Part shown: positions 1-14,925 of the stretch, piece by piece
Position numbering within the stretch: the first letter of the stretch is position 1
How the letters are laid out: each line of letters starts with the position of its first letter
DNA from: Pseudomonadales bacterium
GTDB lineage: Bacteria > Pseudomonadota > Gammaproteobacteria > Pseudomonadales > DT-91
Assembly (NCBI GenBank): GCA_013215025.1
Contig: JABSRR010000092.1
Coordinates: forward strand, 1-15,444
Direction of reading: 5' to 3'
Length of the DNA: 15,444 nt
Notes under the pieces: generated by a model
Database searches by the model: none
The model's input: only the letters and a program-made list of their open reading frames with translations
Told to the model about the DNA's origin: nothing
Made by a program: the position numbers and the translations under genes

Positions 1-901
1 GCACACTAATGCTATCACCACCATTGTTAACATTACCCCAGGTAACCACGGTGCCATTGTTTTTTATCGCCGCAAACGCGGTGTCAGTGCCTATTGCTAT
101 TTTAACATTGCTAAGATCGACACCAGTAATATCGGCACCATTCGCATCTCTGCCCCACACAACGACATCGCCATTGGTCTTGAGGGCAACAAATACACCT
201 ACGTTGCTGGCCACTGATTGTACATTACTGAGATCAAGGCCAGCACTATTGCCACCATAGTCAGCACCGCCCCAAGTGATTAGATTCTCATTGATATCAA
301 GCGCGGCAAAGGCGCGCGCCGTTGCCGAGATCGACTGCACATTACTCAGTGGCTGAACGCTACTACTATTGCTACCATAGCCAGATGACCCCCATGTTAC
401 CACGCTGCCGTCCCCTTTCAGTGCTGCAAAGGCGCGTGAAGTTGCCGCAATCGATACAACATTGTTGAGATCCGCTTGTACACTACTACTGTTACCCCCA
501 TTTCTGCCCCAAGTGACAACACTGCCATCATCTTTAATTGCCGCAAAGGCAGAATCGGTAGCTGCTATTGATTGCACATTGACAAGGCTGGCTTGCACAC
601 TGCTGCTATCACCGCCGTTATTGCCCCATGTCACTACTGAGCCGTCGGCTTTCAATGCTGCAAAGGCGCTGCCGGTCGCCGAAATAGATTGTACATTGCT
701 CAGTGGTTGTACACTGCTACTGTCACCACCAAAGCCATTATTACCCCAAGTTACCACTGTGCCATCATTCTTAAGTGCGGCTAAAGCAAATTGTGTTCCT
801 GCTATTGATTGTACATTGGTTAGATCTACGCCCGTGCTATCACCACCAAAGGGGTTATAACCCCAGGTCTCTGCAGTGCCGTCATCTTTTATTGCGGCAA
901 A
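1..901 (-). repeat. Tandem RCC1-like coding repeats, ~117-120 bp unit, at least eight copies
   Basis: These lie within the large lipoprotein gene. Successive units start with F-A-A-(I/L)-K and contain V-V-T-W-G followed by G-G-(D/N)-S-S-S-V-Q-x-L-x-N-V-Q-S-I-A-A-T. Units 2 to 5 are the most alike (about positions 430-785), and the outer ones have diverged. The last unit runs off the left edge, so the copy number is a minimum. RCC1-type repeats normally build a beta-propeller of about seven blades. These are shorter than the eukaryotic RCC1 repeat (roughly 50-60 residues) but typical of secreted bacterial versions. The similarity of the middle units gives scope for copy-number change by recombination. 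Confidence 0.85.
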
Positions 902-3607
902 TACGCGATCGTTATTGGCGATAGCCTTCACTGCATTGATGCTCACGAGCAAATTCTCAGTAACGAACTCACAGGCATTACTGCCATTGATACCAGTATT
1001 TTGTGCTGTGCAGTAAGCATTTTTCACCGTAACGTCAACGCCCACTTGGGCTGGGAAGCCTGTATCATTGCCTGCTGGATATGTTGGGTTATTAGTGCCG
1101 ACTCGACGGCCGTTGATAGTATATTGATAATCTGTTTTGCTTGGGTCGCAGTTAGTGCAGCGGACATTGGTGGTAAGTGCATTATTGGCATAAGTAATAG
1201 ATAAATTATCCACCACAGGCGCAGCGGGTGGATTGATCACAAAATCAATATTGGCTTGATCGAAGTCACCTAAGGTATCTTTAACAATGTACGATAAAGT
1301 TTCATTGCCGAAGCTAATATTGTCGGGTGTATAGTCGAAGGTTAATGTGCCGGGATTCAATGCAATCCGCCCATATTTGGCCCCGACCACGTTGATCAGC
1401 TCGAAAGGCCGTGCTAAGTCATCTGTCACAAAGTTGCTTACATCAATGGTAAAGGTGGGTGTATCTATGTCGATGGCTGGTAAGCTAAAATCTTGGGCGT
1501 CTACCACAGGCCCTTGAGGCGCAGAAAGAATACTAATCGTACTAAAAGCCTCTTTTTGTCCATCAGAGACAAGATAACCAAAAGTTTCTGTGCCTACATA
1601 GGTATTGGGTGTATAGGTTAATACTAAGTTATTTTGTACAAGAGTCGCTGGCGCGGTGGCGTTACCTTGTATAGTAAGTGTTAAGATGTCGTTGTCGGTA
1701 TCTGTTATAAAACTCGCCATGTCTATTGTAAGCGAGTTAGAGGGGACTGAAGGGTCGATAGTTTCCACGACAGGATCTGCAGTGGGTGCATTATTGATGA
1801 TGTTGATGGTGATCGTGCCCTGGGCAAATCCACCATTGCCATCAGACACCACATAAATAAAGCTATCACTGCTGACGTCGGTCGATGCCTCGTAAAGCAA
1901 TTCCAGATCCCCTGCTATAGTCACAGGATCTACAGCGCCAAACACTTGAGTCACCGTTAATGGATCATTATCTGCGTCACTCACTAGACTTGACAGATCA
2001 ATACTGCGACTTGACTGAGTTAATATATCGTTTAAGGAGTAGTTGATAATTTGATTACTGGCGGTTGGTAAAGCGGTGTTTGCATCCGACACAGTAAATA
2101 CTATGCTTGCGGCCGCTAAACCACCTCGGCCATCGTTAACCACATATGCAACATCATCTACGCCAATAAAGCCATCAGGATCGTAGTTGATCACATTACC
2201 ACTCAAGGTGGCGCGGCCACCGCCACCAAAAATAGAAACCGTGAGCGGGTCGCCGTCGGCATCATCAATTAAATTCAGCCCCGACAAGCTCACATTCACT
2301 GGCGAACTGCTGTTGGTCGTTTGTGAATAATCGGCAGCCGTCGGTATACTGTTTGGAATTGGCGGGTTAGCATCGGCAACAGTGACAATAATTTCACCTA
2401 AGCCTATGCCGCCTCGATCATCTGCGACCACATAAGTAGCTACATCTTGGCCTATAAACCCACTGGGCGTATAAGTGACGGTGTTACCAAAGAGTGCAAA
2501 GCGCGGTGGACTGTTGGCTTGAAGCAGCTCAGTAATCGTTAGCGTGTCTCCAATATCGATATCAGAGATTGATAAGCTGAGATCTATATTAATCGGTGTA
2601 TCATTGAAGGTGCTCTGTATGCTATTTTGAGCGCTGGGCGGGTTGTTGTTGAGGCTATTGATAGCAACAATCAAGGCAGCGCTTTGTTGCTCACTAGCGG
2701 TTGCAACCGTATAAGTCGCTTCAGCAACACCCGCAGAGCCGGCGGTTAAGTCAACCGACTTTGACCTCACGTTATCAACTTGTAAATCCCCACTGTTAAC
2801 CACGACATCAATTAACTGCCAAGTTAATCCTGACTTAATTTTCGAGCTGAAATCAAAGTTCGCGGTTTCACCCTCAATCATATCTACAACCAGTGGTGCT
2901 GCTGCAAGTGCTCTCGGTACTAAAGGCAAAATGGAGTTGACGGTGATTTCTGCCTGCGCCACACCGCCGTTGCCATCGCTAACTTGATAAATGAAACTAT
3001 CCTTACCTCTAAAACTACCCGGCTCATATTGTATGGTAAAGGGGTCGAGTATCGAGGCCCTTCCTGAAGTTGCTGCCAGGTTCTGTAATGTGACATCATC
3101 ACCATCGGTATCGTTGACTAAAGAGGTGATATCAATACGATTGATTGATCCTTGCACAACTGTTAAAGCAAAATTGTTGGCTGTCGGTGGCGTATTATTG
3201 TCAGCGTTAGAGATAGCCACAAAACCCTGAGACGCATATTGTTTGCTATCTTGCTCAATGCGCCATGTGATTTCAGCAAAGCCTGGAGAGTTTGCGGTAA
3301 AGGTTAATACAGAATCGGAAAAGCTAATATCGCTTAACAGGCCATTGGGCTCCTCTGCCTCAGCTAAACGCCAAATGTTATCGCTGCTTACATTTGCTGA
3401 TATATCCACACTGGCGGTATTGCCCTGAATGAGATTAATGCTAAAAGCGGTGAGTATTGGGGTGTCACTGTCTTGTGTGCTGTCATCGGGTAATAAGGGT
3501 TTGTCGCTCGTTTTATCGCAAGCGAGTATGAATATGGTTATGCACCCAAGCAGTAAAAAGCGCAGCAATGATGCAGCTGGAGGTCTTGCAAGTTGGTGTC
3601 GCATCAT
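1..3607 (-). CDS. Large multidomain lipoprotein: Ig/cadherin-like domains plus RCC1-type repeats (3' end outside window)
   Basis: One frame stays open from an ATGATG pair at 3607/3604 to the left edge (over 1,200 codons); I checked it codon by codon and found no stop. The N-terminus has basic residues, a hydrophobic stretch and a lipobox ending I-L-A-C (Cys30), so it is probably a lipoprotein. Asp31 at +2 would favour inner-membrane retention by E. coli rules. Residues ~40-210 form a pair of beta domains (A then B), and a similar A-B pair follows (~220-410). Four more B-type domains carry the cadherin-like signature D-x-D-x-D-x-L-T, then Y-x-V-x-D-G-x-G-G-x-A. Residues ~800-900 are a Cys-containing module (motif C-T-N-C-D-P). 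From ~903 there are eight RCC1-type repeats of ~39-40 residues, each with A-A-(L/I)-K-x-(D/N)-G-x-V-V-T-W-G. The role is probably envelope-bound adhesion or protein binding; no catalytic site was seen. A possible SD (AGG, 10 nt upstream, or AAAGG just before the ATG pair) supports the start. Confidence 0.88.
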   Translation of the reverse strand, partial: MMRHQLARPPAASLLRFLLLGCITIFILACDKTSDKPLLPDDSTQDSDTPILTAFSINLIQGNTASVDISANVSSDNIWRLAEAEEPNGLLSDISFSDSVLTFTANSPGFAEITWRIEQDSKQYASQGFVAISNADNNTPPTANNFALTVVQGSINRIDITSLVNDTDGDDVTLQNLAATSGRASILDPFTIQYEPGSFRGKDSFIYQVSDGNGGVAQAEITVNSILPLVPRALAAAPLVVDMIEGETANFDFSSKIKSGLTWQLIDVVVNSGDLQVDNVRSKSVDLTAGSAGVAEATYTVATASEQQSAALIVAINSLNNNPPSAQNSIQSTFNDTPINIDLSLSISDIDIGDTLTITELLQANSPPRFALFGNTVTYTPSGFIGQDVATYVVADDRGGIGLGEIIVTVADANPPIPNSIPTAADYSQTTNSSSPVNVSLSGLNLIDDADGDPLTVSIFGGGGRATLSGNVINYDPDGFIGVDDVAYVVNDGRGGLAAASIVFTVSDANTALPTASNQIINYSLNDILTQSSRSIDLSSLVSDADNDPLTVTQVFGAVDPVTIAGDLELLYEASTDVSSDSFIYVVSDGNGGFAQGTITINIINNAPTADPVVETIDPSVPSNSLTIDMASFITDTDNDILTLTIQGNATAPATLVQNNLVLTYTPNTYVGTETFGYLVSDGQKEAFSTISILSAPQGPVVDAQDFSLPAIDIDTPTFTIDVSNFVTDDLARPFELINVVGAKYGRIALNPGTLTFDYTPDNISFGNETLSYIVKDTLGDFDQANIDFVINPPAAPVVDNLSITYANNALTTNVRCTNCDPSKTDYQYTINGRRVGTNNPTYPAGNDTGFPAQVGVDVTVKNAYCTAQNTGINGSNACEFVTENLLVSINAVKAIANNDRVFAAIKDDGTAETWGYNPFGGDSTGVDLTNVQSIAGTQFALAALKNDGTVVTWGNNGFGGDSSSVQPLSNVQSISATGSAFAALKADGSVVTWGNNGGDSSSVQASLVNVQSIAATDSAFAAIKDDGSVVTWGRNGGNSSSVQADLNNVVSIAATSRAFAALKGDGSVVTWGSSGYGSNSSSVQPLSNVQSISATARAFAALDINENLITWGGADYGGNSAGLDLSNVQSVASNVGVFVALKTNGDVVVWGRDANGADITGVDLSNVKIAIGTDTAFAAIKNNGTVVTWGNVNNGGDSISV

Positions 3608-3640
3608 CCTTTATCAGCCTTTGTCCTTGTTAGCTATGAT

Positions 3641-3652
3641 AAGTATATACTT
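3641..3652. promoter_or_regulatory. Perfect 12-bp palindrome AAGTATATACTT, possible operator
   Basis: The sequence equals its own reverse complement and overlaps the expected start of transcription of the lipoprotein gene. It could be a repressor site, but AT-rich palindromes of this size also occur by chance. No regulator family can be assigned. Confidence 0.25.
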
Positions 3653-3653
3653 T

Positions 3654-3682
3654 AGTATAAACACTACTATAGCGCCTATAAG
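3654..3682 (-). promoter_or_regulatory. Weak candidate promoter for the large lipoprotein gene
   Basis: On the minus strand a -10-like TATACT (3659-3654; five of six consensus bases) follows a poor -35-like CTTATA (3682-3677; three of six) with 17-bp spacing. Initiation would fall near 3647, about 40 nt before the first ATG and inside the palindrome AAGTATATACTT. The poor -35 keeps this tentative. Confidence 0.25.
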
Positions 3683-3754
3683 CGCAGTAAAGTAGCTAAT
3701 TGAGATACAACTTGAATGTTTGTATGCCTTCTCATGCTAACATACCGCTTTTAT

Positions 3755-3767
3755 GGTCAAATTGACC
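3755..3767. promoter_or_regulatory. Inverted repeat GGTCAA-A-TTGACC, possible regulator site
   Basis: Two 6-bp arms form a perfect inverted repeat around a single A, near the middle of the divergent intergenic region. The left half (TTATGGTCAAA, with flank) recurs at 3905-3915, close to the first operon gene. A repeated half-site suggests a transcription-factor site serving the plus-strand operon, but no known regulator consensus is claimed. Confidence 0.3.
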
Positions 3768-3934
3768 TATAGCTTGATGCAGCCGCTAGCTTATGCAGAG
3801 CTTTGGCTTTTGGTAAGTTTTCGCAAAGACAAATCAAGATATCGCTCTAACGTTGCCATGCCTAGACTGATTGAAAAAGCCGTTACGCTAATGCAGCTTT
3901 TTTGTTATGGTCAAAGTATAAGGAATGAAAGATG

Positions 3935-3940
3935 AAAGGA
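3935..3940 (+). promoter_or_regulatory. Shine-Dalgarno AAAGGA that decides the start of the first operon gene
   Basis: AAAGGA ends 5 nt before ATG 3946. The in-frame ATG at 3925 has its only purine-rich stretch (AAGGA) touching the start codon, too close to work well. Starting at 3946 also gives a cleaner signal peptide. Confidence 0.7.
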
Positions 3941-3945
3941 TTAGC

Positions 3946-4827
3946 ATGTTGCCAATATATCAATTGATAGTGCGCATCTTGATGCCTGCTTTGCTTTACA
4001 TGACGCACAGCGGCTATGCGGAAGAAAAAAGCTATCCAAGCCTTTGGCAGAGCCATGACGCTGCATTACAAACCTCACTGGAACAGCTATTAGATCAGCA
4101 GCAGCTATCGCAGGCGGTCGCCAAGCAACAATTAGCGATTGCACTTGTTGATATTTCAACGCTAAGTCAGCCGAAGTTAGCGGCAGTTAATGGCGATCGT
4201 ATGTTCTATGCGGCAAGCCTACCCAAAATTGCTATTTTACTCGCTGCATTTGTGCAAATTGATCGTGGTGAACTACAGCTCGATGACGCTCTGTGGGCTG
4301 ATATGAATAGTATGATTCGCACCTCAAGCAATCGAGCCGCTTCAAACGTTTTGGCAAAAGTAGGTCCTGACAAACTGATTGACATAATCAGCAGTGAACA
4401 ATTTGCCCTGTATGATGAAGACCGAAATGGCGGCCTATGGGTAGGGAAAGCTTACGCTAAGTCGCCAGCTTATCAACGTGATCCATTGCAGAATCTATCG
4501 CATGCCGCGACCGCTATACAGGCAGCGCGCTTTTATTATTTATTAGAGACGGGTCAACTGGTTAATTCTGAGCTTACTTCACAAATGAAGTCGGTGTTAA
4601 CTGACCCTAAAATATCGCATAAATTTGTAAAGGGCTTAAACCTTGTACCTGAATTGGCCTTGTATCGTAAATCCGGCACTTGGCGTGATTATCATGCTGA
4701 CAGTGTAATGGTGGATGATGGTCAACATAAATACATAATGGTGGGTCTGGCGCATCATGCAGAGGGTGGGCAATGGTTAGAAAGATTGGCGTTACCTTTG
4801 CATAAATTGATAACAGAGAGTAAGTGA
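3946..4827 (+). CDS. Exported class A beta-lactamase-fold serine enzyme (PBP-like, no Glu166 motif)
   Basis: A protein of 293 residues. Residues 1-23 look like a signal peptide with cleavage after G-Y-A. The three active-site motifs of penicillin-interacting serine enzymes are present in order: S91-L-P-K94 (nucleophile and general base), S127-S-N129 (SDN equivalent) and K242-S-G-T (KTG equivalent). The spacing and the stretch R-D-P-L-Q-N-L-S-H-A-A-T-A match the class A fold, but the omega-loop E-x-x-L-N motif carrying the deacylating Glu166 is not apparent. Efficient beta-lactam hydrolysis is therefore unlikely; a DD-peptidase, an acyl-binding role or another serine hydrolase activity fits better. 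The protein contains no cysteine. It is the first gene of the operon, 41 bp before the secreted dikinase, and a second SxxK enzyme lies beyond that. An upstream ATG at 3925 would add seven residues. Family is firm, function is not. Confidence 0.85.
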   Translation: MLPIYQLIVRILMPALLYMTHSGYAEEKSYPSLWQSHDAALQTSLEQLLDQQQLSQAVAKQQLAIALVDISTLSQPKLAAVNGDRMFYAASLPKIAILLAAFVQIDRGELQLDDALWADMNSMIRTSSNRAASNVLAKVGPDKLIDIISSEQFALYDEDRNGGLWVGKAYAKSPAYQRDPLQNLSHAATAIQAARFYYLLETGQLVNSELTSQMKSVLTDPKISHKFVKGLNLVPELALYRKSGTWRDYHADSVMVDDGQHKYIMVGLAHHAEGGQWLERLALPLHKLITESK

Positions 4828-4868
4828 TAATATATTCACGGAATGATAAAAAATAAGGGAATAGTTTT

Positions 4869-7799
4869 ATGATCAAGTCGCTGTATCTATGGATTGTCTG
4901 CTGCATTGGGTCTGTGTTTTTGCAGCCTAGTTATGCAGAGCCATCGAGCTTGAATGCAAACATCGATAGCTACCAAGCTTGGGTGTCGAAAATGAAAGAT
5001 GCCCCGAAAGGTCCTTTCTATCGGATTCGTTGGTTCTGTAATGATGGTTCTGTATTACCTCCCAAAGCCTATGCCTGTGTTGATCATGGCGGAGGCGTTC
5101 AGCATGGACAGTACAGCCAAAATACTGAGACTATTCGCAGTGACGGCTTTTATATAGCTAACCTGCTTGCCGGTAAAGATTTGTCTCAGTGGATAGATTC
5201 AGCGCTATTCACACAGCAGCTTGACCATTTGCTGATAGAAAAATACTTAATCGCGGCTGATGATGGTTGGATTTTTCGCCAAGCGGCAGCCTATCGTGGC
5301 GCCTATCAAGAGGAAGATGAACGATTACAGGCGCGTCAACTGCTACAGTTACTGATACAGCGGCCAAGTTATCTTGGACCGCATTTTGCTGAATTGCGCA
5401 CGGCGGTAAAGCTGTTGCCCCATGGTTTAGATACCAGCTCAGCATCTTCTGTTAGACAAATGGCCACGTCTTTATCTAATGCTAACGCAAAATTTATGCC
5501 CTTGCGCGCTAAGATTCACAATATGCCCAGTGCTGATGATGCATCAGCTGTCAGAGCATTTGCAGCCAATGCTGATTACCTTAGTGATCGATCTGAATAT
5601 GACCGTTTAGCAGATGCGATTGATCAATTGTATCAAGCTAAACCCTTGATACTCGAGCTGCAAACAATGGCAGACTCTGTTGATCAATATCCTCAACTGG
5701 CCAAATTATTTGCTGACGCAGCAGTTCAGCTGAAAGCTGCTGATGCATCAACGTTATATCAAGTTTCGGCAGATTTATTAGCTGTTACTCGTAAGAATTT
5801 AGCGCAAATAAATCAGCCGCAGCTGCGCCTGCAGTTACTAGATTTCTCTCTGCGCCTGGAGGCAGAACATTTTAAGGCCAGCACCCAGTTGCGCGCCAAA
5901 TTATCCAGTTATACACGGAGCGAGCATGTTAGTTTTCTCATTCATGCGCTTAACGCAAGCTATGGCGCTGGTTTAATAAATACCCGCAGTTATCAAGCGG
6001 CATTAAATGCTACCTCAACCTTGCTCGATTCAGATATAAGTATTGATGATTACAATCAGCAGCTCGCTTATCTTGGTCGAGTACCGAGCTGGGGCACACA
6101 AACCTTACGCTTTGAGTTTCAAGAATCGATGCAAAAACTGATGCAAATAGAGCCGCTGGCGGGTCTTTTTATTCAAGATCAGTTGCGCGGTAGCCCGCTA
6201 TTGTTTTTCTCGCAAACCTTGGATCGACTGTCCAGAGATGCGAATCGTCTTAGCGGTATTAAACACAAGCTATTTGAGAAAGAAATTGGCAGTGGCTTTC
6301 ATGCCTTAAACCCTGGTTTAGCCCGAGGTCGATTACATATTAAACTGAATATGGATAACCTAGAAGATATCGAAGCTGATGGTATCTATGTGTTGCCTGA
6401 GACGGTGTCTGACCTGCCGCCTTTGGCAGGCATTATTACCGCTGGCGAGGGTAATCCACTGTCGCATGTACAACTATTAGCCAGAAATCTTGGTATTCCG
6501 AATGTTTCAATTCAGACCGATTTAATTGAAAGTCTAGCCAAGTATGACGGCAAGATGGTCGTCATGGCAGTCAGCGCAAGTGGCTTAGTCGAATTTCATC
6601 AAGATAGTGCCGTATGGCAAAACTATTTTGCCGGTCCAGCCACGGCGCAGGCGGTAAAAATTAAGCCGGATCTTAAAAAATTAGATTTAGATGAAACCCG
6701 ATTTTTAAATTTAAATAATTTACGCGCCTCTGATTCAGGCAGAACCGTAGGTCCAAAAGCAGCTAAATTGGGTGAGCTTCATCATCATTATCCTAATCAA
6801 GTAGCTTCAGGTGTGGTTATACCTTTTGGCCTATTTAAAGCAACAGTGTTAGATCAACCATACAAAGGGTCTGAGAAGTCAGTGTTTGACTGGATGGTTG
6901 AACAATATGATGTAATAAAGTCTTTATCTAATAACACGGCATTACAAAAACAAACGGCAGAAAATTTTCGTGCCGAGCTGTATCAAATTATCTTAAACGC
7001 CGAAATAAGTGCTGAATTTAGCCAAGCCTTGTCTCAAGCTATGCTTGAGGTATTTGGTACAACTGAGATTGGCGTGTTTGTTCGCTCAGATACCAACGTT
7101 GAAGATTTGCCTGGGTTTACTGGTGCGGGTTTAAACCTAACACTGCCAAATGTTATTGGTATTGATGGTGTGTTAGATGCGATAAATCGCGTTTGGGCTT
7201 CGCCGTTTACTGCTCGTGCTTTTGCATGGCGACAATCGCATATGGATAAACCACAGCATGTCTATCCGGCAGTGTTGTTACTGCAGTCGGTTGCTAACGA
7301 TAAATCGGGTGTGCTGGTGACGCAGGATATTGATACTGGTAATAATCAGGTGATTTCAGTTGCTGTAAATGAGGGCGTCGGAGGCGCCGTTGACGGGCAA
7401 TCTGCAGAATCTTTGCGAGTCGATATGAATACCGGTGAAGTCAAGCTTTTAGCCACTGCCTCGGCGCCCTGGCGTCGTCAGCCTGCGCCCAGTGGTGGCA
7501 TAGAAAAATTGCCTGCCTCTGGTTCTGATAGCGTGTTGCAGCCGTCTGAAGTGCAGCAACTGATTAAGTTTGCTAAAGCTTTGCCTACTACCTTTCCTGC
7601 TATTACTGATGACAAGGGAAACCCAGCCCCGGCAGACGTTGAATTTGGCTTTATTAATGGCGATATGCGTCTGTTTCAGCTGCGACCGTTTTTACAAAAT
7701 GCTCAAACGCAATCGAATCAATATTTGATCGATATGGATAATGCGCTGTCTGGCGCGGCGGATAAAACCGTCGATATGGGTGAGGTTCTCAGCTTATGA
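4869..7799 (+). CDS. Exported dikinase with glucan-water-dikinase-type His and ATP-binding domains
   Basis: 976 residues. Residues 1-23 form a signal peptide (K3, hydrophobic core, cleavage after S-Y-A). Residues ~30-480 are largely helical and unrecognised; C57 and C70 are the only cysteines of the mature protein, as expected for a periplasmic disulfide. Residues ~495-590 are the mobile phosphohistidine domain of PEP-utilising enzymes, with G-N-P-L-S-H533-V-Q-L-L-A-R. Residues ~625-945 are a PPDK_N/PEP-synthase-type ATP-binding domain: V-G-P-K630, V-R739-S-D-T-N-V-E-D-L-P-G, V-W-A-S-P-F-T-A-R-A-F, and a terminal D-V-E925-F-G ending Q-L-R-P. The order His domain then ATP domain, and the R-S-x-x-N-V-E-D-L motif, match glucan water dikinases. 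There is no PEP/pyruvate barrel and no recognisable starch-binding module. The expected chemistry is ATP to AMP plus Pi with beta-phosphate transfer through His533; the acceptor is unknown. SD AAGGGA lies 8 nt upstream. Database-style names such as PEP synthase would mislead. Confidence 0.88.
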   Translation: MIKSLYLWIVCCIGSVFLQPSYAEPSSLNANIDSYQAWVSKMKDAPKGPFYRIRWFCNDGSVLPPKAYACVDHGGGVQHGQYSQNTETIRSDGFYIANLLAGKDLSQWIDSALFTQQLDHLLIEKYLIAADDGWIFRQAAAYRGAYQEEDERLQARQLLQLLIQRPSYLGPHFAELRTAVKLLPHGLDTSSASSVRQMATSLSNANAKFMPLRAKIHNMPSADDASAVRAFAANADYLSDRSEYDRLADAIDQLYQAKPLILELQTMADSVDQYPQLAKLFADAAVQLKAADASTLYQVSADLLAVTRKNLAQINQPQLRLQLLDFSLRLEAEHFKASTQLRAKLSSYTRSEHVSFLIHALNASYGAGLINTRSYQAALNATSTLLDSDISIDDYNQQLAYLGRVPSWGTQTLRFEFQESMQKLMQIEPLAGLFIQDQLRGSPLLFFSQTLDRLSRDANRLSGIKHKLFEKEIGSGFHALNPGLARGRLHIKLNMDNLEDIEADGIYVLPETVSDLPPLAGIITAGEGNPLSHVQLLARNLGIPNVSIQTDLIESLAKYDGKMVVMAVSASGLVEFHQDSAVWQNYFAGPATAQAVKIKPDLKKLDLDETRFLNLNNLRASDSGRTVGPKAAKLGELHHHYPNQVASGVVIPFGLFKATVLDQPYKGSEKSVFDWMVEQYDVIKSLSNNTALQKQTAENFRAELYQIILNAEISAEFSQALSQAMLEVFGTTEIGVFVRSDTNVEDLPGFTGAGLNLTLPNVIGIDGVLDAINRVWASPFTARAFAWRQSHMDKPQHVYPAVLLLQSVANDKSGVLVTQDIDTGNNQVISVAVNEGVGGAVDGQSAESLRVDMNTGEVKLLATASAPWRRQPAPSGGIEKLPASGSDSVLQPSEVQQLIKFAKALPTTFPAITDDKGNPAPADVEFGFINGDMRLFQLRPFLQNAQTQSNQYLIDMDNALSGAADKTVDMGEVLSL

Positions 7800-9094
7800 T
7801 AACGAAGTGGATGATAGGAGTGGCGCTAACGGCCAGCTTGATGATAACTGCCCCGTTAAATATTGCCTATCCAATAGATGGTTATGAAGATACTGGTATT
7901 CGCAGAGTCGAGGGCTACCGTCGCATAACGGCTGGTGAAATACCAGGAACAAAGCTGCCGCAAGGTGGCCGGCTAAATACCGCAGCGGTTGACTTGAGGC
8001 TGACCCAGCAGATGCAATCAGGTCTGCCTGTAGTTGATCAACAATTGTCTCAAGAAATTAAACAATTACTGGGTAAAGACGCTGCGCATTATGGACTGGC
8101 GCTGCTCGATTATTCAGATCCAAATAATATGGTCTATGCAGAGGTTAATGCGGATTATCGGCAGAACGTTGGTAGCGTGGGTAAATTAGTTGGTGCATTG
8201 GGTTTTTTTCAGGCCTTGGCTGATGTTTATCCCACTGATATTGATAAACGCGCAGCATTATTAAAATCGACCATTGTCACAGCTGATCAATTCTCCCAAC
8301 GTGATACACATTCAATTAAGGTGTTTGATCCAGCCACGAATATTATGCATCGTCATAGTATGAAGATTGGTGAAACCGGTAATTTATGGGAATATCTCGA
8401 TTGGATGTTGTCGGTTAGCTCAAATGCCGCCGCTGCGATGATCATGCGCGAGGCCATGCTCATTCGGCATTTCAAAACGGCATACCCCGTAGATGACAGT
8501 CAAATACAAGCTTTTTTCCGCGATACGGATAAGGCAACCTTGACCGCCTTGTATAAAGAAACCTTTTGGCAACCGATTGAGCGAAACGGCATCAGTATTG
8601 ATGAACTGCGTCAGGGTAGCTTCTTTACACGTTCGGGCAAAGCGGCGGTTTATGGCGGTGGTTTAAGTTACGGTACGGCTAAATCTTTGATGCAGTTAAC
8701 CTTAAAAATGGAGCAAGGTCAGCTGGTAGACCGCTGGAGTAGCTTGCAACTTAAGCGCCTACTTTACATGACAGAACGGCGTATTCGCTATGCATCGGCG
8801 CCTGCGCTAAACGCTGCGGCGGTGTATTTTAAATCGGGCTCCTTGTATAGCTGTAAGCCCGAGCCAGGGTTTAGCTGCGGTAAATACCAGGGTAATGTGA
8901 AAAATTATATGAATTCACTCGCGATTATTGAAAGTCCGGCTGCCAAGCCTGAATTACAATATTCTGTGGCGTTAATCTCAAACGTGCTCAAAGTCAACTC
9001 TGCTGTTGCACACCAAACCCTGGCAATGCGCATTCATCGACTTTTAGAAAAGCGTCATGCTGAACAAAGCACCACGGTGGCGAAAAGCCTTTGA
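7796..9094 (+). CDS. Second exported SxxK serine enzyme of the beta-lactamase/penicillin-binding fold
   Basis: 432 residues, longer than a class A beta-lactamase (~290). The start ATG overlaps the TGA of the dikinase gene in ATGA, so translation is probably coupled. The N-terminus is hydrophobic (residues ~5-24) and looks like a signal peptide. Active-site motifs: S127-V-G-K130, S208-S-N210 and K346-S-G-S349. Residues ~25-90 form a polar extension before the fold. There are extra segments between the second and third motifs (about 215-300), and after the KSG motif an insertion bounded by C353 and C361, the only two cysteines, probably a disulfide. No Glu166 equivalent was identified. It is clearly diverged from the first serine enzyme rather than a recent duplicate. 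A substrate related to peptidoglycan stem peptides is the natural guess, but either enzyme could have been recruited to other acyl or peptide chemistry. Confidence 0.8.
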   Translation: MITKWMIGVALTASLMITAPLNIAYPIDGYEDTGIRRVEGYRRITAGEIPGTKLPQGGRLNTAAVDLRLTQQMQSGLPVVDQQLSQEIKQLLGKDAAHYGLALLDYSDPNNMVYAEVNADYRQNVGSVGKLVGALGFFQALADVYPTDIDKRAALLKSTIVTADQFSQRDTHSIKVFDPATNIMHRHSMKIGETGNLWEYLDWMLSVSSNAAAAMIMREAMLIRHFKTAYPVDDSQIQAFFRDTDKATLTALYKETFWQPIERNGISIDELRQGSFFTRSGKAAVYGGGLSYGTAKSLMQLTLKMEQGQLVDRWSSLQLKRLLYMTERRIRYASAPALNAAAVYFKSGSLYSCKPEPGFSCGKYQGNVKNYMNSLAIIESPAAKPELQYSVALISNVLKVNSAVAHQTLAMRIHRLLEKRHAEQSTTVAKSL

Positions 9095-10509
9095 GTACGC
9101 TAGCAAAATCGCCACTGGAGCGTTTTTTTTCAATATTCTCTGATGTTAGGTCAGGAGAAGGCAACACCGTTTTATTGTTGTCTGCGAATGTGTTTTTCAT
9201 TCTGTTAGCGTACTACATGATTAAGCCCGTTCGAGAAGGTTGGATCGCAATATCTGATATTCCTGGCATCAGTAAAGTCGAGGTCAAAGCCTACTCCAGC
9301 TTCTTACAAAGCGTGTTGTTACTGTTTATTGTGGGCTGGTATGCCAAGTTGTCAGACAAGCTAGATAAGCTTGTACTATTCCGCTGGGCAACCTTGTTTT
9401 GTATTTCGAATATTGTGATTTTCTGGTTGCTGCAGCCTGATTTTATTATTGCTAAGTCTGCCTGGATTGGCTTCGCTTATTACCTCTGGGTTGGTATGTT
9501 TGGCGTGTTTGTGGTTGCCCAGTTTTGGACGTTTTGTGCCGATTTATTTACCAGCGATACTGGTAACCGTTTGATGCCGGTCATCGCGATAGGCGCGACC
9601 TCGGGTGCTGTCATTGGCTCATGGCTAGTTTCTGCTTTATTGCATACTAGCTGGTTCAACAGTGATTATTTGTTAGTGTTAGCGACTGTGCCTTTACTAG
9701 CCTCGATTTTTTTAATGCAGCAGGTAGGGCGACAATCACAGCAACACACTGCAAAAGCCTCAGCGATTGAGCCAGCTAAGCTCTGGGTAGGCGTAAAGTT
9801 GATTTGTAATAGCCGTTTTTTACTGCTCGCTGCCGTGGTAACAGTGCTATCAAACTGGGTTAATACTAATGGTGAGAATCTACTGTTCTCTGTGGTGCAG
9901 GTATTTTTACAGCAGCAAGCCATTGTTGAACAAATTAGCAGTCCTGCGGCAGTGAACAGTTTTATTAATACTGGCACCACTGCTTTTTATGGCGACTTCT
10001 TTTTTTGGGTTAACTTGTTCGCCTTATTACTGCAGGCGTTTGTCGCGTCGAGACTGTTAAAATATGGTGGCTTTGCTGCTGTATTATTATTGCTGCCGGT
10101 GATTGCGATTGCTTCATATGTGATTATCTTTTTGGCACCGGTGTTATATATCGTTAAAGTAATGAAAATCTTGGAAAATGCTACCGATTACTCCATTAAC
10201 AACACGTCTCGACAGGTGCTGTGGTTACCTATTGCAAGCCAAACTAAATTTCATGCCAAACCGGCAATTGATACACTTTATTGCCGCTTGGGCGATGGTT
10301 TAGCCGCTTTGACCGTATTTCTAGGTGTGCATGTGTATATTATTCCTCTGAAGTACTTAATTGCTTTTAATCTTGCTTTAGTCGTGCTGTGGTTAATGTC
10401 AGCGGTTGCGCTGGCCATACATTATAAACGTCTTGTACAGAGCAATGATGGACCAAAGCAGCCACCAGCAATCAATAATGAAAACATACTTTCACAAAGT
10501 ACAGGGTGA
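9091..10509 (+). CDS. ATP/ADP translocase family (NTT/Tlc) nucleotide carrier, inner membrane
   Basis: 472 residues with about 11-12 hydrophobic segments, near the ~500 residues of Tlc/Npt carriers. Family marks are Y-Y-M-I-K-P-V-R-E-G-W in the first membrane segment (~41-51) and E-N-A-T-D-Y-S-I-N-N-T-S-R-Q followed by L-P-I-A-S-Q-T-K-F-H-A-K and I-D-T-L-Y-C-R-L-G-D (~362-403), which is the most conserved part of nucleotide transport proteins. Members exchange ATP for ADP or move other nucleotides; they are best known from Rickettsia, Chlamydia and plastids, with poorly studied relatives in free-living bacteria. The start is TTG at 9091, overlapping the previous TGA as TTGA. The next in-frame ATG (residue 43) would cut off the first membrane segment. 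Translational coupling to the upstream enzymes suggests it serves the exported dikinase; the direction and the nucleotide are inference. Confidence 0.85.
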   Translation: MSTLAKSPLERFFSIFSDVRSGEGNTVLLLSANVFFILLAYYMIKPVREGWIAISDIPGISKVEVKAYSSFLQSVLLLFIVGWYAKLSDKLDKLVLFRWATLFCISNIVIFWLLQPDFIIAKSAWIGFAYYLWVGMFGVFVVAQFWTFCADLFTSDTGNRLMPVIAIGATSGAVIGSWLVSALLHTSWFNSDYLLVLATVPLLASIFLMQQVGRQSQQHTAKASAIEPAKLWVGVKLICNSRFLLLAAVVTVLSNWVNTNGENLLFSVVQVFLQQQAIVEQISSPAAVNSFINTGTTAFYGDFFFWVNLFALLLQAFVASRLLKYGGFAAVLLLLPVIAIASYVIIFLAPVLYIVKVMKILENATDYSINNTSRQVLWLPIASQTKFHAKPAIDTLYCRLGDGLAALTVFLGVHVYIIPLKYLIAFNLALVVLWLMSAVALAIHYKRLVQSNDGPKQPPAINNENILSQSTG

Positions 10510-10515
10510 TAGCTC

Positions 10516-11268
10516 TTGAGATATTTTATTCAGTCTTTTTTTAGCCAGCTTGTTTATACCCTCGGTGCTATATCATTGTGGCTGGGATTTACTGTGCAGC
10601 TTAGCTATGCGCAGGAGAATCTTTCGGCCGACGCTAAGCATCAGTTCGTGCACGTTGAAGTTCAAAATGTGCAGCTTGAACTGCAAGGTGTCAGTGATGC
10701 ACTGCAGTCACTTGAACAGCGCCTGATTGCGATGACTGTGGCAATGGAAAAGTTAGCCGCTAGTGGTGGTACCCTAACAGAGCAAGATCAGCTATTACTG
10801 TCACAGCTGCGCAAGAATCTAACCGATACCAGCACTGCGCTTAAATACCAGGTGGAACAACTGCCGAATGATGCGGAAAAACTTCATGCCTATTTAAATA
10901 CTTTGAGTAGTAGTTTACAGCAGTTACAGATCAGTCTCGCGAATTTTTTACTTACCTATCCTGAAGTATTTCAGTCGATGCAAGACAATGTCAATGCCAG
11001 CATTAACCATGGATTCACCTGGTTAATTGTGGTGATGCTGGTAATTGTGCTGTTATTGCTTAGCCTGATTGTGATTGGCATCAAATTATTCTACCGTCAG
11101 GTTATGCAGCCGTTAATGCATTGCATTGATACGCTGGCTAAGTTTCCTGCGCAGCAACAGCAAACAGCCGAGCTAATGCAGGACATCACCGAGCGATTAG
11201 CACAGCTGCAATCTGAAACAAAAACTATTCCCAAGACTATTGAGAAAAATTCAACTGACGAGCAATAA
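10516..11268 (+). CDS. Signal-peptide, coiled-coil, single-span membrane protein of unknown function
   Basis: 250 residues, starting at TTG 10516 with an SD-like AGGGTGA that includes the stop codon of the carrier gene (gap 6 bp). Residues 1-32 are a signal peptide with probable cleavage after S-Y-A. Residues ~40-160 are heptad-like and rich in Q, L, E and S, so a long periplasmic coiled coil is likely. Residues ~168-193 are a strongly hydrophobic span, followed by K/R residues, then a tail of about 55 residues with a second short amphipathic helix. Topology would be periplasmic N-terminus and cytoplasmic C-terminus; the only cysteine (in L-M-H-C-I-D) is on the cytoplasmic side. I recognise no family. 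Its place next to the carrier suggests a scaffold tying periplasmic enzymes to the membrane, or a signal relay. A mechanosensitive-channel-like or chemoreceptor-like fragment was considered, but no diagnostic domain is present. Confidence 0.75.
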   Translation: MRYFIQSFFSQLVYTLGAISLWLGFTVQLSYAQENLSADAKHQFVHVEVQNVQLELQGVSDALQSLEQRLIAMTVAMEKLAASGGTLTEQDQLLLSQLRKNLTDTSTALKYQVEQLPNDAEKLHAYLNTLSSSLQQLQISLANFLLTYPEVFQSMQDNVNASINHGFTWLIVVMLVIVLLLLSLIVIGIKLFYRQVMQPLMHCIDTLAKFPAQQQQTAELMQDITERLAQLQSETKTIPKTIEKNSTDEQ

Positions 11269-11305
11269 TTTTTTGTTTCGAATAAAACGTGCTTGGTAGT
11301 ATTTG

Positions 11306-12040
11306 ATGTCAGTGACTGTAAAAGGTAATTCTCGAGAAGCCAATTGTATTGATTGGTTGCGCTTTCTCGCCATAGTGTTAATGATTTTCTATCACTTCTT
11401 ATGGGATTTGAAACTCTTTGATATTATTGCACCCTACTTTTTTTATTCCAACCTTGTTCAGTTTTTCGGGCGATTGTGTCTTTTTCTATTTCTTTTCTGT
11501 GTCGGTTTTAGTTTTTCTTTTTCTCATTCAAACCACGTTGATTGGTCAGCTTTCTTCAGGCGATTGATTAAGTTAAGCCTTGTTGCACTGTCGATTTCGT
11601 TACTCACTTTTCTCTCAATGCCGAGTAAATTTATATATTTTGGCATTATCCATCATATCGTTTTTGCAAGTATTGTTTTAATAGTCATGGTGAGGCATCG
11701 TTTGCTTGCCTTTATTATAGGTGTATATGTATTCGCGCCTTACCTACTCGCTAATAGTATTGAATGCAATGCTGAATGGGCGCGTTTTTTCCCGTTGCTA
11801 CAATCCAATTGTTATTATCCTAAATACTGGCTATTTCGATCTACCGTCGATTATATTAACCCTTTGCCTTGGCTTGGCTGCAGTTTGATTGGCTTAGGCT
11901 TCAGCTATTTTGGTGTTTTACAGAAAATAGCTGTGCCAAATTATCCGTTGGTCAAGTTTCTAAGTCAGCATTCCTTGATCATTTATATAATACATCAGCC
12001 TTTATTACTGGCCATTGTTTATACTTTAACCAAGTTTTAA
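11306..12040 (+). CDS. DUF1624 / HGSNAT-like transmembrane acetyltransferase
   Basis: 244 residues, mostly membrane-embedded (about seven spans). Family marks are C-I-D-W-L-R-F-L-A-I-V-L-M-I-F-Y-H30 with W-D-L in the first span, Y-F-G-I-I-H-H-I in the middle, L-F-R-S-T-V-D-Y followed by L-P-W-L-G, and Y-I-I-H-Q-P-L-L-L near the end. The human relative, heparan-alpha-glucosaminide N-acetyltransferase, takes acetyl from cytosolic acetyl-CoA and transfers it across the membrane to a terminal glucosamine, using a histidine. Bacterial DUF1624 proteins are shorter and their substrates are mostly unknown. ATG 11306 was chosen over the adjoining TTG 11303; neither has a strong SD (GGTAG lies upstream). 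It follows the coiled-coil gene by 37 bp with no visible terminator between them, so it is probably in the same operon and may modify an envelope glycan. Confidence 0.8.
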   Translation: MSVTVKGNSREANCIDWLRFLAIVLMIFYHFLWDLKLFDIIAPYFFYSNLVQFFGRLCLFLFLFCVGFSFSFSHSNHVDWSAFFRRLIKLSLVALSISLLTFLSMPSKFIYFGIIHHIVFASIVLIVMVRHRLLAFIIGVYVFAPYLLANSIECNAEWARFFPLLQSNCYYPKYWLFRSTVDYINPLPWLGCSLIGLGFSYFGVLQKIAVPNYPLVKFLSQHSLIIYIIHQPLLLAIVYTLTKF

Positions 12041-12055
12041 GCTGCGTTTTTTTGA

Positions 12056-12060
12056 AGAGG
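12056..12060 (+). promoter_or_regulatory. Shine-Dalgarno AGAGG that fixes the start of the channel gene
   Basis: AGAGG ends 6 nt before ATG 12067. The frame is open upstream to an ATG at 11869, but that extension overlaps the acetyltransferase in another frame and is not membrane-protein-like, so 12067 is the real start. Confidence 0.8.
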
Positions 12061-12066
12061 TATCAA

Positions 12067-12879
12067 ATGCAGAGTTATCTATTACAGAATAAATTTGAGC
12101 AATTGCGCTCTAATAAGCTGTTTGAGCTTTTTGTGATCGCAGTCATTATTTTTTCTGCCCTCGTCGTCGGTGCTAAGACCTATGCAATACCCGCGGGTCT
12201 GTATCAAATAGTCACGCTATTAGATGGTTTTATTACACTGTTTTTCTTGTTTGAAATTCTGGTGCGTTTTCTCGCCGAGCCGCAAAAGCGACGTTTCTTT
12301 TTTAATTTTTGGAATAGTTTTGACACCTTGATTGTGTTGGTGAGCCTGATACCCATCGATAATAGTGAGATGGCGGTAGTGGGTCGTCTGATAAGAATAT
12401 TTAGAGTGCTGCGCATGGTGTCAATGATTCCTGAACTGCGTTTATTAATAAGCTCCTTGGTTCGCGCTTTACCGCAGTTAGGCTATGTCTTATTGCTAAT
12501 GTTTATAATTTTTTATATTTATGCGGCAATTGGCGCGACACTGTTTGCCCCAATCAATCCGGTACTGTGGGGTGATATCAGCATTGCTATGCTCACCTTA
12601 TTTCGCATCATGACCTTTGAAGATTGGACGGATGTGATGTATGAAACTATGGCTGTTTATGGCTTTAGCTGGTTTTATTATTTAAGCTTTATCTTTTTTA
12701 CCGCATTCGCATTTCTCAATATGGTAATTGGGATTGTCGTTAACTCCTTAGAGACTGAACACGCGCAACAGCGTCATGATGAGCAGGGGGAGCCGACTTT
12801 GCTTGAGCTGCAAGAAGAGATACGCAGCCTTAAAGTGCTGATTCAGCATCAAGCTAAGCGCAATCCGCCATCAACATGA
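12067..12879 (+). CDS. One-domain voltage-gated cation channel (NaChBac/NavAb family) with Ca-type filter
   Basis: 270 residues, the usual size of bacterial one-domain channels, which assemble as tetramers in the inner membrane. S1-S3 lie in residues ~18-100. S4 carries four gating arginines every third residue (R107, R110, R113, R116). S5 follows at ~130-155. The pore helix leads into the filter T183-F-E-D-W-T-D189. S6 (~205-230) contains A-F-L-N-M-V-I-G-I-V-V-N. A cytoplasmic tail ends in a heptad-like coiled coil (L-L-E-L-Q-E-E-I-R-S-L-K-V-L). Classical sodium members read T-L-E-S-W-(S/A)-x. Here acidic residues occupy the positions changed to Asp when NavAb was engineered into the calcium-selective CavAb, so calcium permeation is predicted. 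It lies 26 bp after the acetyltransferase; its 3' end overlaps the convergent reductase gene by 31 bp. Confidence 0.92.
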   Translation: MQSYLLQNKFEQLRSNKLFELFVIAVIIFSALVVGAKTYAIPAGLYQIVTLLDGFITLFFLFEILVRFLAEPQKRRFFFNFWNSFDTLIVLVSLIPIDNSEMAVVGRLIRIFRVLRMVSMIPELRLLISSLVRALPQLGYVLLLMFIIFYIYAAIGATLFAPINPVLWGDISIAMLTLFRIMTFEDWTDVMYETMAVYGFSWFYYLSFIFFTAFAFLNMVIGIVVNSLETEHAQQRHDEQGEPTLLELQEEIRSLKVLIQHQAKRNPPST

Positions 12880-13613
12880 ATGGTCTCACCATGAATATAG
12901 TCATTGTGCAAAAGAAAGCGGGCGGTTGACGCTATAGCCGATGTATTGCCCAGTTTATGTAACGGAATTTTATCCAATAAAGCCTGCTGTTCCTGATTAT
13001 CCAGTGCGGCTGTCTGTGGTTCAGGCCATAAAATGGCCCCGGGCGCGATAGCATTTACGCGAACATGCGGCGCAAAACTGAGGGCCATATTTTCAGTTAA
13101 CATTTTCAGTGCAGCTTTGCTGGTGCTGTAGGCGTCAAAACCATATTGCGGTTTGCTCGCGTAAACGTCTAACATATTGATAATACAGCCGCCGTTTTTC
13201 TCAAGGCTTGGTCGCATGGCCTGAGAAATAATCCAGGGTGCCAACATATGCATCGCGATATGCGTGTTAAAATGCTCCACATCAATATGCCTTAGATTAC
13301 TCTCTGTTGCAGGCGTTTTGTGATAAATAGATGCATTATTGATCACAGCAAATATAGCGAGCTCCTGTGCAATGATGTGATTACACATCGCCTGTGTTGC
13401 TTCATTATTTCGCAGATCGGCTGCAATAATTCGGCAAGAGTCTGCTCGCTGTTGATTCAGTTTGCTTTGAATCGCGGCTGCAGCCGCATGGCTTTGATGA
13501 TAATGCAGCATGATGCAGTATCCATCTGCATGAATCGATTCGACCAGGCGTTGTCCAAGTCGTTTAGCCGCGCCAGTCACGAGCACCCACTGGTCTTTTT
13601 TACTCTGGTTCAC
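12849..13613 (-). CDS. folM: Pteridine reductase of the SDR superfamily (FolM-like dihydromonapterin/dihydrofolate reductase)
   Basis: 254 residues of the short-chain dehydrogenase fold. The nucleotide-binding motif is T13-G-A-A-K-R18-L-G, the T-G-x-x-x-R-x-G form typical of NADPH-dependent pteridine reductases (PTR1, FolM). N92-N-A-S, the catalytic Y162-S-T-S-K166 and a C-terminal H-V-D-G-G are also present. The usual catalytic Ser is replaced by Asp149 in I-N-M-L-D-V-Y, again as in pteridine reductases. Expected reaction: NADPH reduction of dihydromonapterin (cofactor of phenylalanine hydroxylase in many proteobacteria) or dihydrofolate, in the cytoplasm. Start GTG 13613 lies inside the end of cca (14-nt overlap) with AGG 8 nt upstream, implying coupled translation. 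Its 3' end runs 31 bp into the convergent channel gene. The exact substrate is not certain; other SDRs also use this fold. Confidence 0.8.
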   Translation of the reverse strand: MNQSKKDQWVLVTGAAKRLGQRLVESIHADGYCIMLHYHQSHAAAAAIQSKLNQQRADSCRIIAADLRNNEATQAMCNHIIAQELAIFAVINNASIYHKTPATESNLRHIDVEHFNTHIAMHMLAPWIISQAMRPSLEKNGGCIINMLDVYASKPQYGFDAYSTSKAALKMLTENMALSFAPHVRVNAIAPGAILWPEPQTAALDNQEQQALLDKIPLHKLGNTSAIASTARFLLHNDYIHGETIHVDGGLRLA

Positions 13614-14919
13614 GCTGGTTACCTAATATACGTTCTTGAAGGGTTTGTATTGCCTGGCAGCGCAGTTGATCAAGCTTGTCGCCGATTATTTTGCCGCCTT
13701 GTTTTAGCGTCTCAGCATCTAGCATGGCAGCTTTACATGCTGCTGCCGCAGCAAAGCACTGGTTTAAAAAAGTAGCTGCTTTGTATTCAATATCACTATC
13801 AGCATGTTGAGTGTGGAAGTCAGCCTCACAAAGCATTAAAAACAGTTGAAGCTTATGCGGGTCTCTAAAGGCATCCAGCGTTTTCAGCAGCTGTAAAACA
13901 GTCTCTGCGTCTTGCTCAATAATACTGTGGCATTGTTGATAATGTTGACTACAAAGCAGCGCTAAAGTTTGAGTCGAACTGGCTACGCGCAGCCGCTGAC
14001 AAAGCTGGCTTATATAGTCTGTAGAGTCCGCCTCAGCTTGATTTCCCACCTTGCTTGTTAAGCTATGCTTGTTATTTAGTAAATATGTTAGGCAGCAAAA
14101 CAACAGGTCGATATGCTGTTTTTGGTTTAGCGGGCTTTCGAGCGACTGTATCAGCCGCTTTGCTTGCATAAGCGTTGCCAGTGGCTGCTGAGCTTTTGTG
14201 GATATCGGCGAAATCGAAGCGTCTAGTTGTTCAATATGGCTGATCTGCGCTAATGGCAATGAATTGAAAAATAACTCATCTAGCTCAGGAAATAACTGGC
14301 CTAATGCACCGCAGTGCTGCAAGCTTAGAAAAAAGTAATGCGCCGATGGGCTAAGTAGGGCTTTCTGTGTTTCTTGCCATACACGTTCGATGCTTAATGT
14401 TTGCAGCTCACCCGATTTAGCAATCTGCTGCATTAAAGCTAAGGTTTCTGGCGCAATTTGAAAGCCCAGATGCGCAAATCGTGCATGAAACCGAGCTACT
14501 CGCAGTACTCGCAGTGGGTCCTCTGAAAATGCTGCCGAGACATGCCGTAGAATTTTGTTACTGAGATCAGCTTGACCGTTATAGGGGTCAATTAATTCAC
14601 CATGCTGATTTTTTGCTATGGCATTAATCGTGAGGTCACGTCGTTGCAGATCTTGCTCTAAGCTAACCGTAGGATCATAGAAGCAGGCAAAACCATCATG
14701 GCCAGAGCCGATTTTTCTTTCCTGTCGCGCGAGAGCATATTCTTGTTTGGTTTCAGGGTGTAAAAATACCGGAAAGTCTTTACCCACCTGCTGAAAACCA
14801 CGATCTAACATGTCTTGAACTGTATGGCCGACAACGACCCAGTCCAAGTCAGCACCTTCAATGCCTAGCAGTTGATCACGAACCGCACCACCAACAAGAT
14901 AATATTCTAACGGTTGCAT
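13600..14919 (-). CDS. cca: CCA-adding tRNA nucleotidyltransferase, class II, lacking the HD phosphohydrolase residues
   Basis: 439 residues (E. coli enzyme: 412). The nucleotidyltransferase head has G10-G-A-V-R-D15, the metal-binding pair D24-L-D26, and the conserved L-Q-R-R-D95-L-T-I-N-A with nucleotide selection by E133-D-P-L-R-V-L-R-V-A-R-F. The enzyme restores or builds the 3' CCA end of tRNAs from CTP and ATP in the cytoplasm. Many gammaproteobacterial homologues have a C-terminal HD domain with 2',3'-cyclic phosphodiesterase activity. Here the region that should contain H-D reads C-C-L277-T278-Y-L-L, and no H-T motif precedes it, so that activity is probably lost. Residues ~280-439 are diverged and helical. 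The gene follows apaH by a few bases and overlaps the reductase start by 14 nt. The SD of the ATG at 14919 is weak. Confidence 0.93.
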   Translation of the reverse strand: MQPLEYYLVGGAVRDQLLGIEGADLDWVVVGHTVQDMLDRGFQQVGKDFPVFLHPETKQEYALARQERKIGSGHDGFACFYDPTVSLEQDLQRRDLTINAIAKNQHGELIDPYNGQADLSNKILRHVSAAFSEDPLRVLRVARFHARFAHLGFQIAPETLALMQQIAKSGELQTLSIERVWQETQKALLSPSAHYFFLSLQHCGALGQLFPELDELFFNSLPLAQISHIEQLDASISPISTKAQQPLATLMQAKRLIQSLESPLNQKQHIDLLFCCLTYLLNNKHSLTSKVGNQAEADSTDYISQLCQRLRVASSTQTLALLCSQHYQQCHSIIEQDAETVLQLLKTLDAFRDPHKLQLFLMLCEADFHTQHADSDIEYKAATFLNQCFAAAAACKAAMLDAETLKQGGKIIGDKLDQLRCQAIQTLQERILGNQREPE

Positions 14920-14925
14920 GATTTA

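Follow-up and report, generated by a model that had tools for sequence, protein, structure and literature searches.

Four adjacent genes of a Pseudomonadales bacterium (DT-91) encode an apparently exported dikinase, two apparently exported serine enzymes of the SxxK type, hereafter SerA and SerB, and a carrier of the NTT family, and these four families co-occur and cluster across genomes with the catalytic motifs of the enzymes conserved. The genes lie in the stretch of 15,444 nucleotides analyzed here and called the window (assembly GCA_013215025.1, contig JABSRR010000092.1, positions 1 to 15,444, forward strand). The explanation that we favor, at about even chances, is a module for ATP-dependent phosphotransfer in the periplasm, which a nucleotide carrier would serve and which would act on an envelope substrate. 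An earlier note on this DNA had proposed such a module from five consecutive genes with gaps of 41, -4, -4 and 6 bp. The gene arrangement is exactly as described there, and the interpretation holds with respect to linkage, predicted export, intact catalytic residues and carrier family, but not with respect to the ATP/ADP substrate and the fifth gene. The features discussed are the following (the listing of open reading frames, or ORFs, opens SerA at an earlier ATG, 3925).

3946..4827, + strand: SerA, apparently exported SxxK serine enzyme 1 (PF13354; like class A beta-lactamases and PBP-A), with S91xxK94, S127xN129 and K242SG
4869..7799, + strand: dikinase, apparently exported, with an orphan N-terminal domain, a phosphohistidine swivel domain and a C-terminal ATP-binding domain
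4869..4937, + strand: predicted Sec signal peptide of the dikinase, 23 residues, cut after PSYA (heuristic)
5037..5078, + strand: dikinase codons 57 to 70, bounded by the conserved cysteine pair C57/C70
6396..6527, + strand: PEP-utilizers (phosphohistidine swivel) match of the dikinase, residues 510-553, with the H533 codon at 6465-6467
6744..7718, + strand: PPDK_N ATP-binding domain of the dikinase, residues 626-950, with the K630 codon at 6756-6758 and the R739 codon at 7083-7085
7796..9094, + strand: SerB, apparently exported SxxK serine enzyme 2, with S127xxK130, S208xN210, K346SG and the cysteine pair C353/C361
9091..10509, + strand: NTT-type nucleotide carrier of subfamily nttA, with the D402 codon (place of AtNTT1 K527) at 10294-10296
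10516..11268, + strand: coiled-coil-like fifth gene with a single membrane helix, judged to lie outside the conserved module

The earlier note had named absence of conserved linkage as an outcome that would speak against its reading; such linkage was looked for and is found. When genome contigs were scanned with two exact peptide patterns, 112 encoding stretches emerged, and the locus counts reported here refer to the best 80 of these, many of which lie on short contigs. Cultured bacteria with the dikinase include species of Parahaliea, Agaribacterium and Aestuariicella. The 80 loci include 72 with SerB, 53 with SerA and 44 with a gene of the NTT type, the carrier counts being made on unfiltered reading frames. 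Thirty-one loci extend at least 8 kb from the dikinase in either direction; SerB is found in 30 of them, SerA in 26 and NTT in 21, with all three in 20 and NTT only in L040. Unbiased clustering of the neighboring ORFs, which lost some of them to overlap filtering, places the four families of the module at the top (78, 67, 51 and 39 loci including the window), the next family following at 12 loci. Gene order and strand within the module differ widely between loci.

The same association emerges from genome samples. The class sample of 276 genomes (cut-offs of E 1e-60 for the dikinase, 1e-20 for SerB, 1e-15 for SerA and 1e-6 for a profile of nttB, one of the carrier kinds described below) contains the dikinase in 28 genomes, of which G228, G347 and G375 have it in pieces. 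SerB occurs in 29, namely all 28 dikinase genomes plus a fragment in G296, and SerA in 27, every one of them dikinase-positive (it is absent from G121 and present only as a short piece in G250). Carriers matching PF03219 are found in 26 of the 28 dikinase-positive genomes versus 21 of the 248 negative ones, and the more sensitive nttB profile detects an NTT-type carrier in 28/28 versus 47/248. Fisher p-values for association with the dikinase are 1.6e-37 for SerB, 1.4e-36 for SerA and 1.8e-18 for the NTT type, values that are too small and not to be taken literally since the genomes within the sample are related. Proximity on the same contig, within 3 kb, holds for dikinase and SerB in 23 of 25 cases and for SerA and NTT in 23 of 26. 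With the nttB profile, 21 of 21 places scoring above 440 bits lie in dikinase-positive genomes, the top score in a negative genome being 196.5; as this profile was built from dikinase-linked genes, the split speaks for a linked subfamily and does not constitute an unbiased test. In the order sample of 116 genomes the full dikinase is present in two (G000 and G002), SerB and SerA are found solely in the same two, and these also hold the two top carrier scores, weaker NTT matches occurring in 16 more genomes; 88 further genomes match only parts of the C-terminal ATP-binding half of the dikinase. Sixteen genomes were also searched whole: 12 have no carrier in the sampled locus, of which 11 have one elsewhere, and in four (L010, L062, L068 and L074) the locus itself contains a carrier, whole or in part. 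A separate observation concerns G296, a genome without the dikinase, in which the SerB fragment adjoins an NTT gene (C174:22203-25057), perhaps a decayed module.

The carrier slot beside the dikinase is filled by three kinds of NTT protein: nttA, the kind of the window, nttB, of about 420-460 residues, and nttH, comprising NTT-HEAT fusions (HEAT repeats are recognized by Pfam in 4 of the 5 tested). The 44 loci with a carrier divide into nttB only (15), nttA only (14), nttH only (8), nttB with nttH (6) and nttA with nttH (1). On a tree of 71 dikinases with 37 labeled rows, for which an earlier and incomplete set of labels was used (L030, L072 and L062, each with two kinds, were labeled nttH, L055, L064 and L071 nttB, and L068 and L073 left unlabeled), the carrier kinds need 10 changes, against a minimum of 2 and a shuffled mean of 17.1, and well-supported branches force at least 5 to 6 changes per carrier kind. 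We read this pattern as suggesting repeated refilling of one functional slot by NTT kinds; the alternative would be loss of one of two ancestral carrier copies. Distance matrices of the families correlate with r of 0.835 for dikinase and SerB, 0.823 for dikinase and nttB, 0.855 for SerB and nttB, 0.968 for SerA and nttB and 0.638 for SerB and SerA. The values are 0.564 for dikinase and SerA as well as for dikinase and nttA, 0.524 for SerA and nttA and 0.446 for SerB and nttA; the small nttH sets gave 0.751 (7 loci) and 0.934 (6 loci), with 24 and 73 of 2000 permutations as high. Such agreement would also be expected from shared ancestry alone. In the dikinase tree, L064, titled a Klebsiella pneumoniae metagenome-assembled genome, falls among other Gammaproteobacteria, and its label is probably wrong.

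The window carrier itself gives no match in a Pfam search, PF03219 included, and the PF03219 scan of genome G000 is likewise without a match. A profile of 14 rows, composed of this carrier and its relatives, matches the PDB structures of CpNTT1 (E 5e-13) and AtNTT1 (E 3e-8), the carrier aligns with its relatives over most of its length with probability 100 in profile comparison, and 9 of the 10 relatives tested exceed the PF03219 cut-off. These profile matches place it, with good support, in one family with the NTT or TLC carriers known from chlamydiae, rickettsiae and plastids (PF03219; PDB 9j3n and 9j3j). Unlike those carriers, the ones of the module belong to bacteria with genomes of 2.3-5.7 Mb and lie beside apparently exported enzymes. 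Excerpts of PMC5381601 describe NTT genes as widespread in free-living bacteria, with most of their diversity uncharacterized.

The dikinase of the window matches PPDK_N with E 2e-26, and its match to PEP-utilizers (PF00391) is just below threshold (21.1 bits, cut-off 23.1), in a region that aligns to phosphoenolpyruvate (PEP) synthase 8a8e. The histidine domain (residues 510-553) precedes the ATP-binding domain (residues 626-950), and the N-terminal 456 residues of the mature protein match no Pfam family up to E 5. K630, R739 and H533 are kept in 77 of 77 alignment rows, and they probably correspond, in our reading, to Lys22, Arg117 and His825 in rifampin phosphotransferase, an enzyme in which mutation of Lys22 or Arg117 abolished resistance (excerpts of PMC4844700).

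SerA matches PF13354 with E 2e-14, and SerB approaches the same family below threshold (20 versus 22 bits). The SxxK, SxN and KSG motifs that SerA has in common with class A beta-lactamases and cyanobacterial PBP-A (S91, K94, S127, N129, K242, S243 and G244) are invariant in 49 of 49 rows. Those of SerB are conserved to a similar extent: S127, K130, S208 and N210 in 65/65 rows and K346 and G348 in 61/61, with S in 59 rows and T in 2 at position 347. SerA also has a weak PDB match to TLL2115 (2j7v), which we take to be the cyanobacterial PBP-A. Class A beta-lactamases need a glutamate (Glu166) for deacylation; none is present among the invariant or nearly invariant columns of 19 rows of SerA, and the conserved E306 and E327 of SerB sit, judging by sequence position only, far from the spacing expected of Glu166.

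Signal peptides were called by a home-made heuristic rule, which passes 62 of 73 dikinases, 50 of 67 SerB and 44 of 53 SerA proteins; the cytoplasmic controls, named by eye, pass in 0/10 (Lon) and 1/8 (pyruvate kinase). Export of the three enzymes is predicted on this basis in most relatives. In the window, the signal peptides that the earlier note had assigned to all three are recovered for the dikinase and SerB but not for SerA, whose hydrophobic start ending in GYA is recognizable by eye only. Its account of the cysteines is accurate: those of the dikinase are residues 11 and 12, both within the signal peptide, 57 and 70, SerA has none, and SerB has 353 and 361. The pairs C57/C70 (71/71 and 71/72 letters) and C353/C361 (61/61 each) are conserved among relatives and would fit oxidized, exported proteins.

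In the mechanism that we propose, the dikinase would be exported by Sec and work in the periplasm, where its ATP-binding domain would take a phosphate from ATP and load it onto His533 in the swivel domain. This swivel domain may then swing to the orphan N-terminal domain and give the phosphate to an envelope substrate bound there, leaving AMP and inorganic phosphate. The NTT-family carrier would move nucleotide across the inner membrane, supplying ATP to the dikinase, taking AMP back, or both. SerA and SerB, putative acyl-serine enzymes of penicillin-binding-protein type, could process or hold the same substrate before or after phosphorylation, and this substrate would most simply be a peptidoglycan-type peptide or glycan. 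Periplasmic ATP, the direction of transport, phosphoryl transfer and the substrate are all steps that we infer, periplasmic ATP being the boldest of the chain. A more specific version we advance tentatively, with chances somewhat short of even: free-living Gram-negative bacteria would maintain a dedicated periplasmic ATP economy, in which ATP leaves through the NTT carrier, perhaps in exchange for AMP, and drives an exported dikinase that phosphorylates an envelope polymer alongside two acyl-serine enzymes. If true, it would represent a new way of energizing periplasmic chemistry. The module hints at energy-driven reactions in a compartment thought to lack ATP and points to a hitherto unknown envelope modification, and the placement of an NTT carrier next to an enzyme that is apparently exported and keeps its ATP site intact suggests a possible role for the NTT carriers of free-living bacteria. 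The component families are known and the system itself appears to be new: the open literature in PubMed Central (PMC), searched by titles and the starts of abstracts, contains no description of it, subscription papers lying outside this search.

Several observations weigh against this explanation. The dikinase would produce AMP, not ADP, and no periplasmic adenylate kinase turned up, though no search was aimed at one. NTT genes are lacking nearby in 10 of the 31 loci that reach 8 kb from the dikinase in either direction, and the genome of L007, searched whole, yielded no NTT carrier. The signal heuristic misses 11/73 dikinases, 17/67 SerB and 9/53 SerA proteins, some via wrong starts, and rejects the SerA of the window; 5 of 7 symporters and 30 of 44 carriers also pass it, so that it detects hydrophobic starts in general. 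Key residues of the carrier are altered as well. In AtNTT1, K155 and K527 bear on the binding of ADP and ATP and E245 on transport, ATP binding being lost in K527E (excerpts of PMC3306366); K155, E245, E385 and K527 are the four charged residues named in excerpts of PMC10654386. These sites were mapped onto the 9j3j chain by counting in printed alignments, with the assumed offset that gives lysines at 155 and 527 and a glutamate at 245. Where AtNTT1 has K155, E245 and K527, S70, G135 and D402 stand in the window carrier, which lacks equivalents of E245 and K527 and thus at least two of the charged residues that the plant carrier needs for ATP/ADP exchange. For K527, the nttH proteins show an acidic residue, D or E, in all 8 rows with a letter there. 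The designation of the protein as an ATP/ADP carrier thus stands for the family but not for the substrate. The conserved E262 of the window carrier lies near the approximate place of E385, and K45, K390, D394 and R399, together with an acidic residue at 262, are common to all three carrier kinds. The nttB proteins have D at the E245 place and K at the K527 place (16/16 rows each).

The altered residues favor the best placed of the competing explanations, which we nevertheless regard as unlikely: that the carrier does not feed ATP outward and imports a nucleotide, NAD or a phosphorylated compound arising from the exported enzymes, the module serving salvage or uptake. The NTT family includes carriers of NAD and other nucleotides (excerpts of PMC5381601), and some recurrent neighbors of the module, the families of which were named by Pfam on one example each, would suit product uptake. 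Phosphatase genes lie beside the module in seven loci, for acid phosphatase B, apparently a lipoprotein, in L010, L016 and L023 and for a metallophosphoesterase in L014, L018, L020 and L030, the latter accompanied in all four by an unnamed protein of about 480-500 residues (cut short in L030). A sodium:dicarboxylate symporter (SDF) with SBP_bac_3 is found in nine loci (L007, L008, L014, L018, L023, L033, L034, L044 and L078), the fusion of symporter and solute-binding domains being confirmed by Pfam in L007, and it adjoins different members of the module depending on the locus; it hints at an amino acid as product. On the other hand, salvage would leave the exported dikinase, whose ATP-binding domain is intact, with the surroundings as its only source of nucleotide, and nttB, which fills the same slot, retains the lysine of K527. 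The phosphatases also fit the favored phosphotransfer module, in which the conversion of ATP to AMP calls for return or breakdown of AMP, since they match turnover of phosphate esters or AMP outside the membrane.

A second and less probable explanation, to which we give a slim chance, is that export is an artifact of prediction and the hydrophobic start merely tethers the dikinase to the cytoplasmic face of the inner membrane, within reach of cytoplasmic ATP. The passage of membrane proteins through our heuristic speaks for it. Against it, the mature dikinase and SerB of the window hold no cysteines other than their conserved pair, SerA and SerB are similar to exported types of enzyme, and the dikinase has a standard cut site after its hydrophobic stretch.

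The remaining explanations involve comparison with known systems. Plant glucan and phosphoglucan water dikinases have the histidine domain before a C-terminal ATP domain, as in the window dikinase, and presumably share with it an RSDxNxEDLxGxxGAGL-like motif; glucan water dikinase has an N-terminal starch-binding domain and transfers the beta-phosphate of ATP to glucan. No such domain is recognized in the window protein, which moreover is bacterial, apparently exported and linked to serine enzymes and an NTT carrier. PEP synthase and pyruvate phosphate dikinase (PF01326, PF00391) have the same ATP-binding and swivel histidine domains, with catalytic residues kept, but the window dikinase differs in its reversed domain order, orphan N-terminal domain and predicted export. 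It also has no PEP/pyruvate-binding domain (Pfam, E up to 0.001), the ATP domain stopping at residue 950 of 976, and membership in the PEP synthase family is rejected on the lack of this C-terminal domain. Rifampin phosphotransferase likewise uses a swivel histidine to relay phosphate from ATP to a substrate other than pyruvate, and its Lys22 and Arg117 have equivalents here, but its ATP domain comes first and its histidine domain is C-terminal (excerpts of PMC4844700). Membership in that family is rejected on this order, the window protein also having no recognized drug-binding domain.

It is very unlikely that the four genes form a periplasmic set inactivating toxins or antibiotics, in which the dikinase would phosphorylate a drug and SerA and SerB, as beta-lactamase relatives, would bind or open acyl compounds. 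The ATP-binding domain does match models of rifamycin phosphotransferases, far below their cut-offs, and SerA has motifs of beta-lactamase type. These matches are confined to the shared ATP domain, however, the domain order differs as described, the dikinase has no plasmid match at E 1e-30, and SerA has no conserved glutamate of the class A deacylation type, on which ground its membership in class A beta-lactamases is rejected, SerB reaching PF13354 only below the cut-off. Equally improbable is that ATP is not the phosphoryl donor of the dikinase, or that the enzyme works in reverse to recover ATP from a phosphorylated envelope polymer and AMP, the carrier bringing the ATP in: the direction of NTT carriers depends on gradients, but the sequences give nothing in favor of this proposal and we know of no phosphorylated periplasmic polymer of the kind. 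Its precedent is pyruvate phosphate dikinase, which works in the ATP-forming direction in bacteria and protozoa (excerpts of PMC5371819).

Other candidates were considered and rejected. Chance neighborhood is rejected on the evidence from co-occurrence, linkage and the carrier slot. Cargo of a mobile element is rejected as the dikinase has no match, at E 1e-30, among 72,556 plasmid or 50,697 phage records, and a known anti-phage defense system as PADLOC models match none of the four module proteins with E up to 0.01. The fifth gene, which the earlier note had counted in, does not belong to the module: the ORFs of the 80 loci hold no relative of it, and it has no real similarity to the gene following the carrier in L004.

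Further genes recur around the module. A transmembrane Ser/Thr protein kinase adjoins the NTT-HEAT gene in L011, L030, L040 and L070, with kinase and Cache domains recognized by Pfam in L030. Lon, named by eye in 12 loci, lies close together with pyruvate kinase in L055 and L072, both such loci that were examined, a neighborhood that may reflect shared gene order. In L053 (3422-9070) the module contains a second, short copy of SerA and a DUF3011 protein, of which two look-alikes were seen by eye.

A scan of the window for promoters and terminators gave 20 and 7 sites, against shuffled means of 19.1 and 10.4, and is thus uninformative. Upstream of the module, a large ORF (2-3607, - strand) leaves the edge of the window and has a lipoprotein-like start followed, by eye, by cadherin-like and then RCC1-like repeats. 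Downstream, Pfam recognizes an HGSNAT-type acyltransferase and then an Ion_trans channel gene (11303-12879, + strand); the channel as listed, from a TTG, overlaps the acyltransferase, and its true start is therefore probably later. The region 12849-15435 on the - strand encodes a short-chain dehydrogenase and a CCA-adding-type enzyme, both recognized by Pfam, together with an ApaH-like fragment named by eye.

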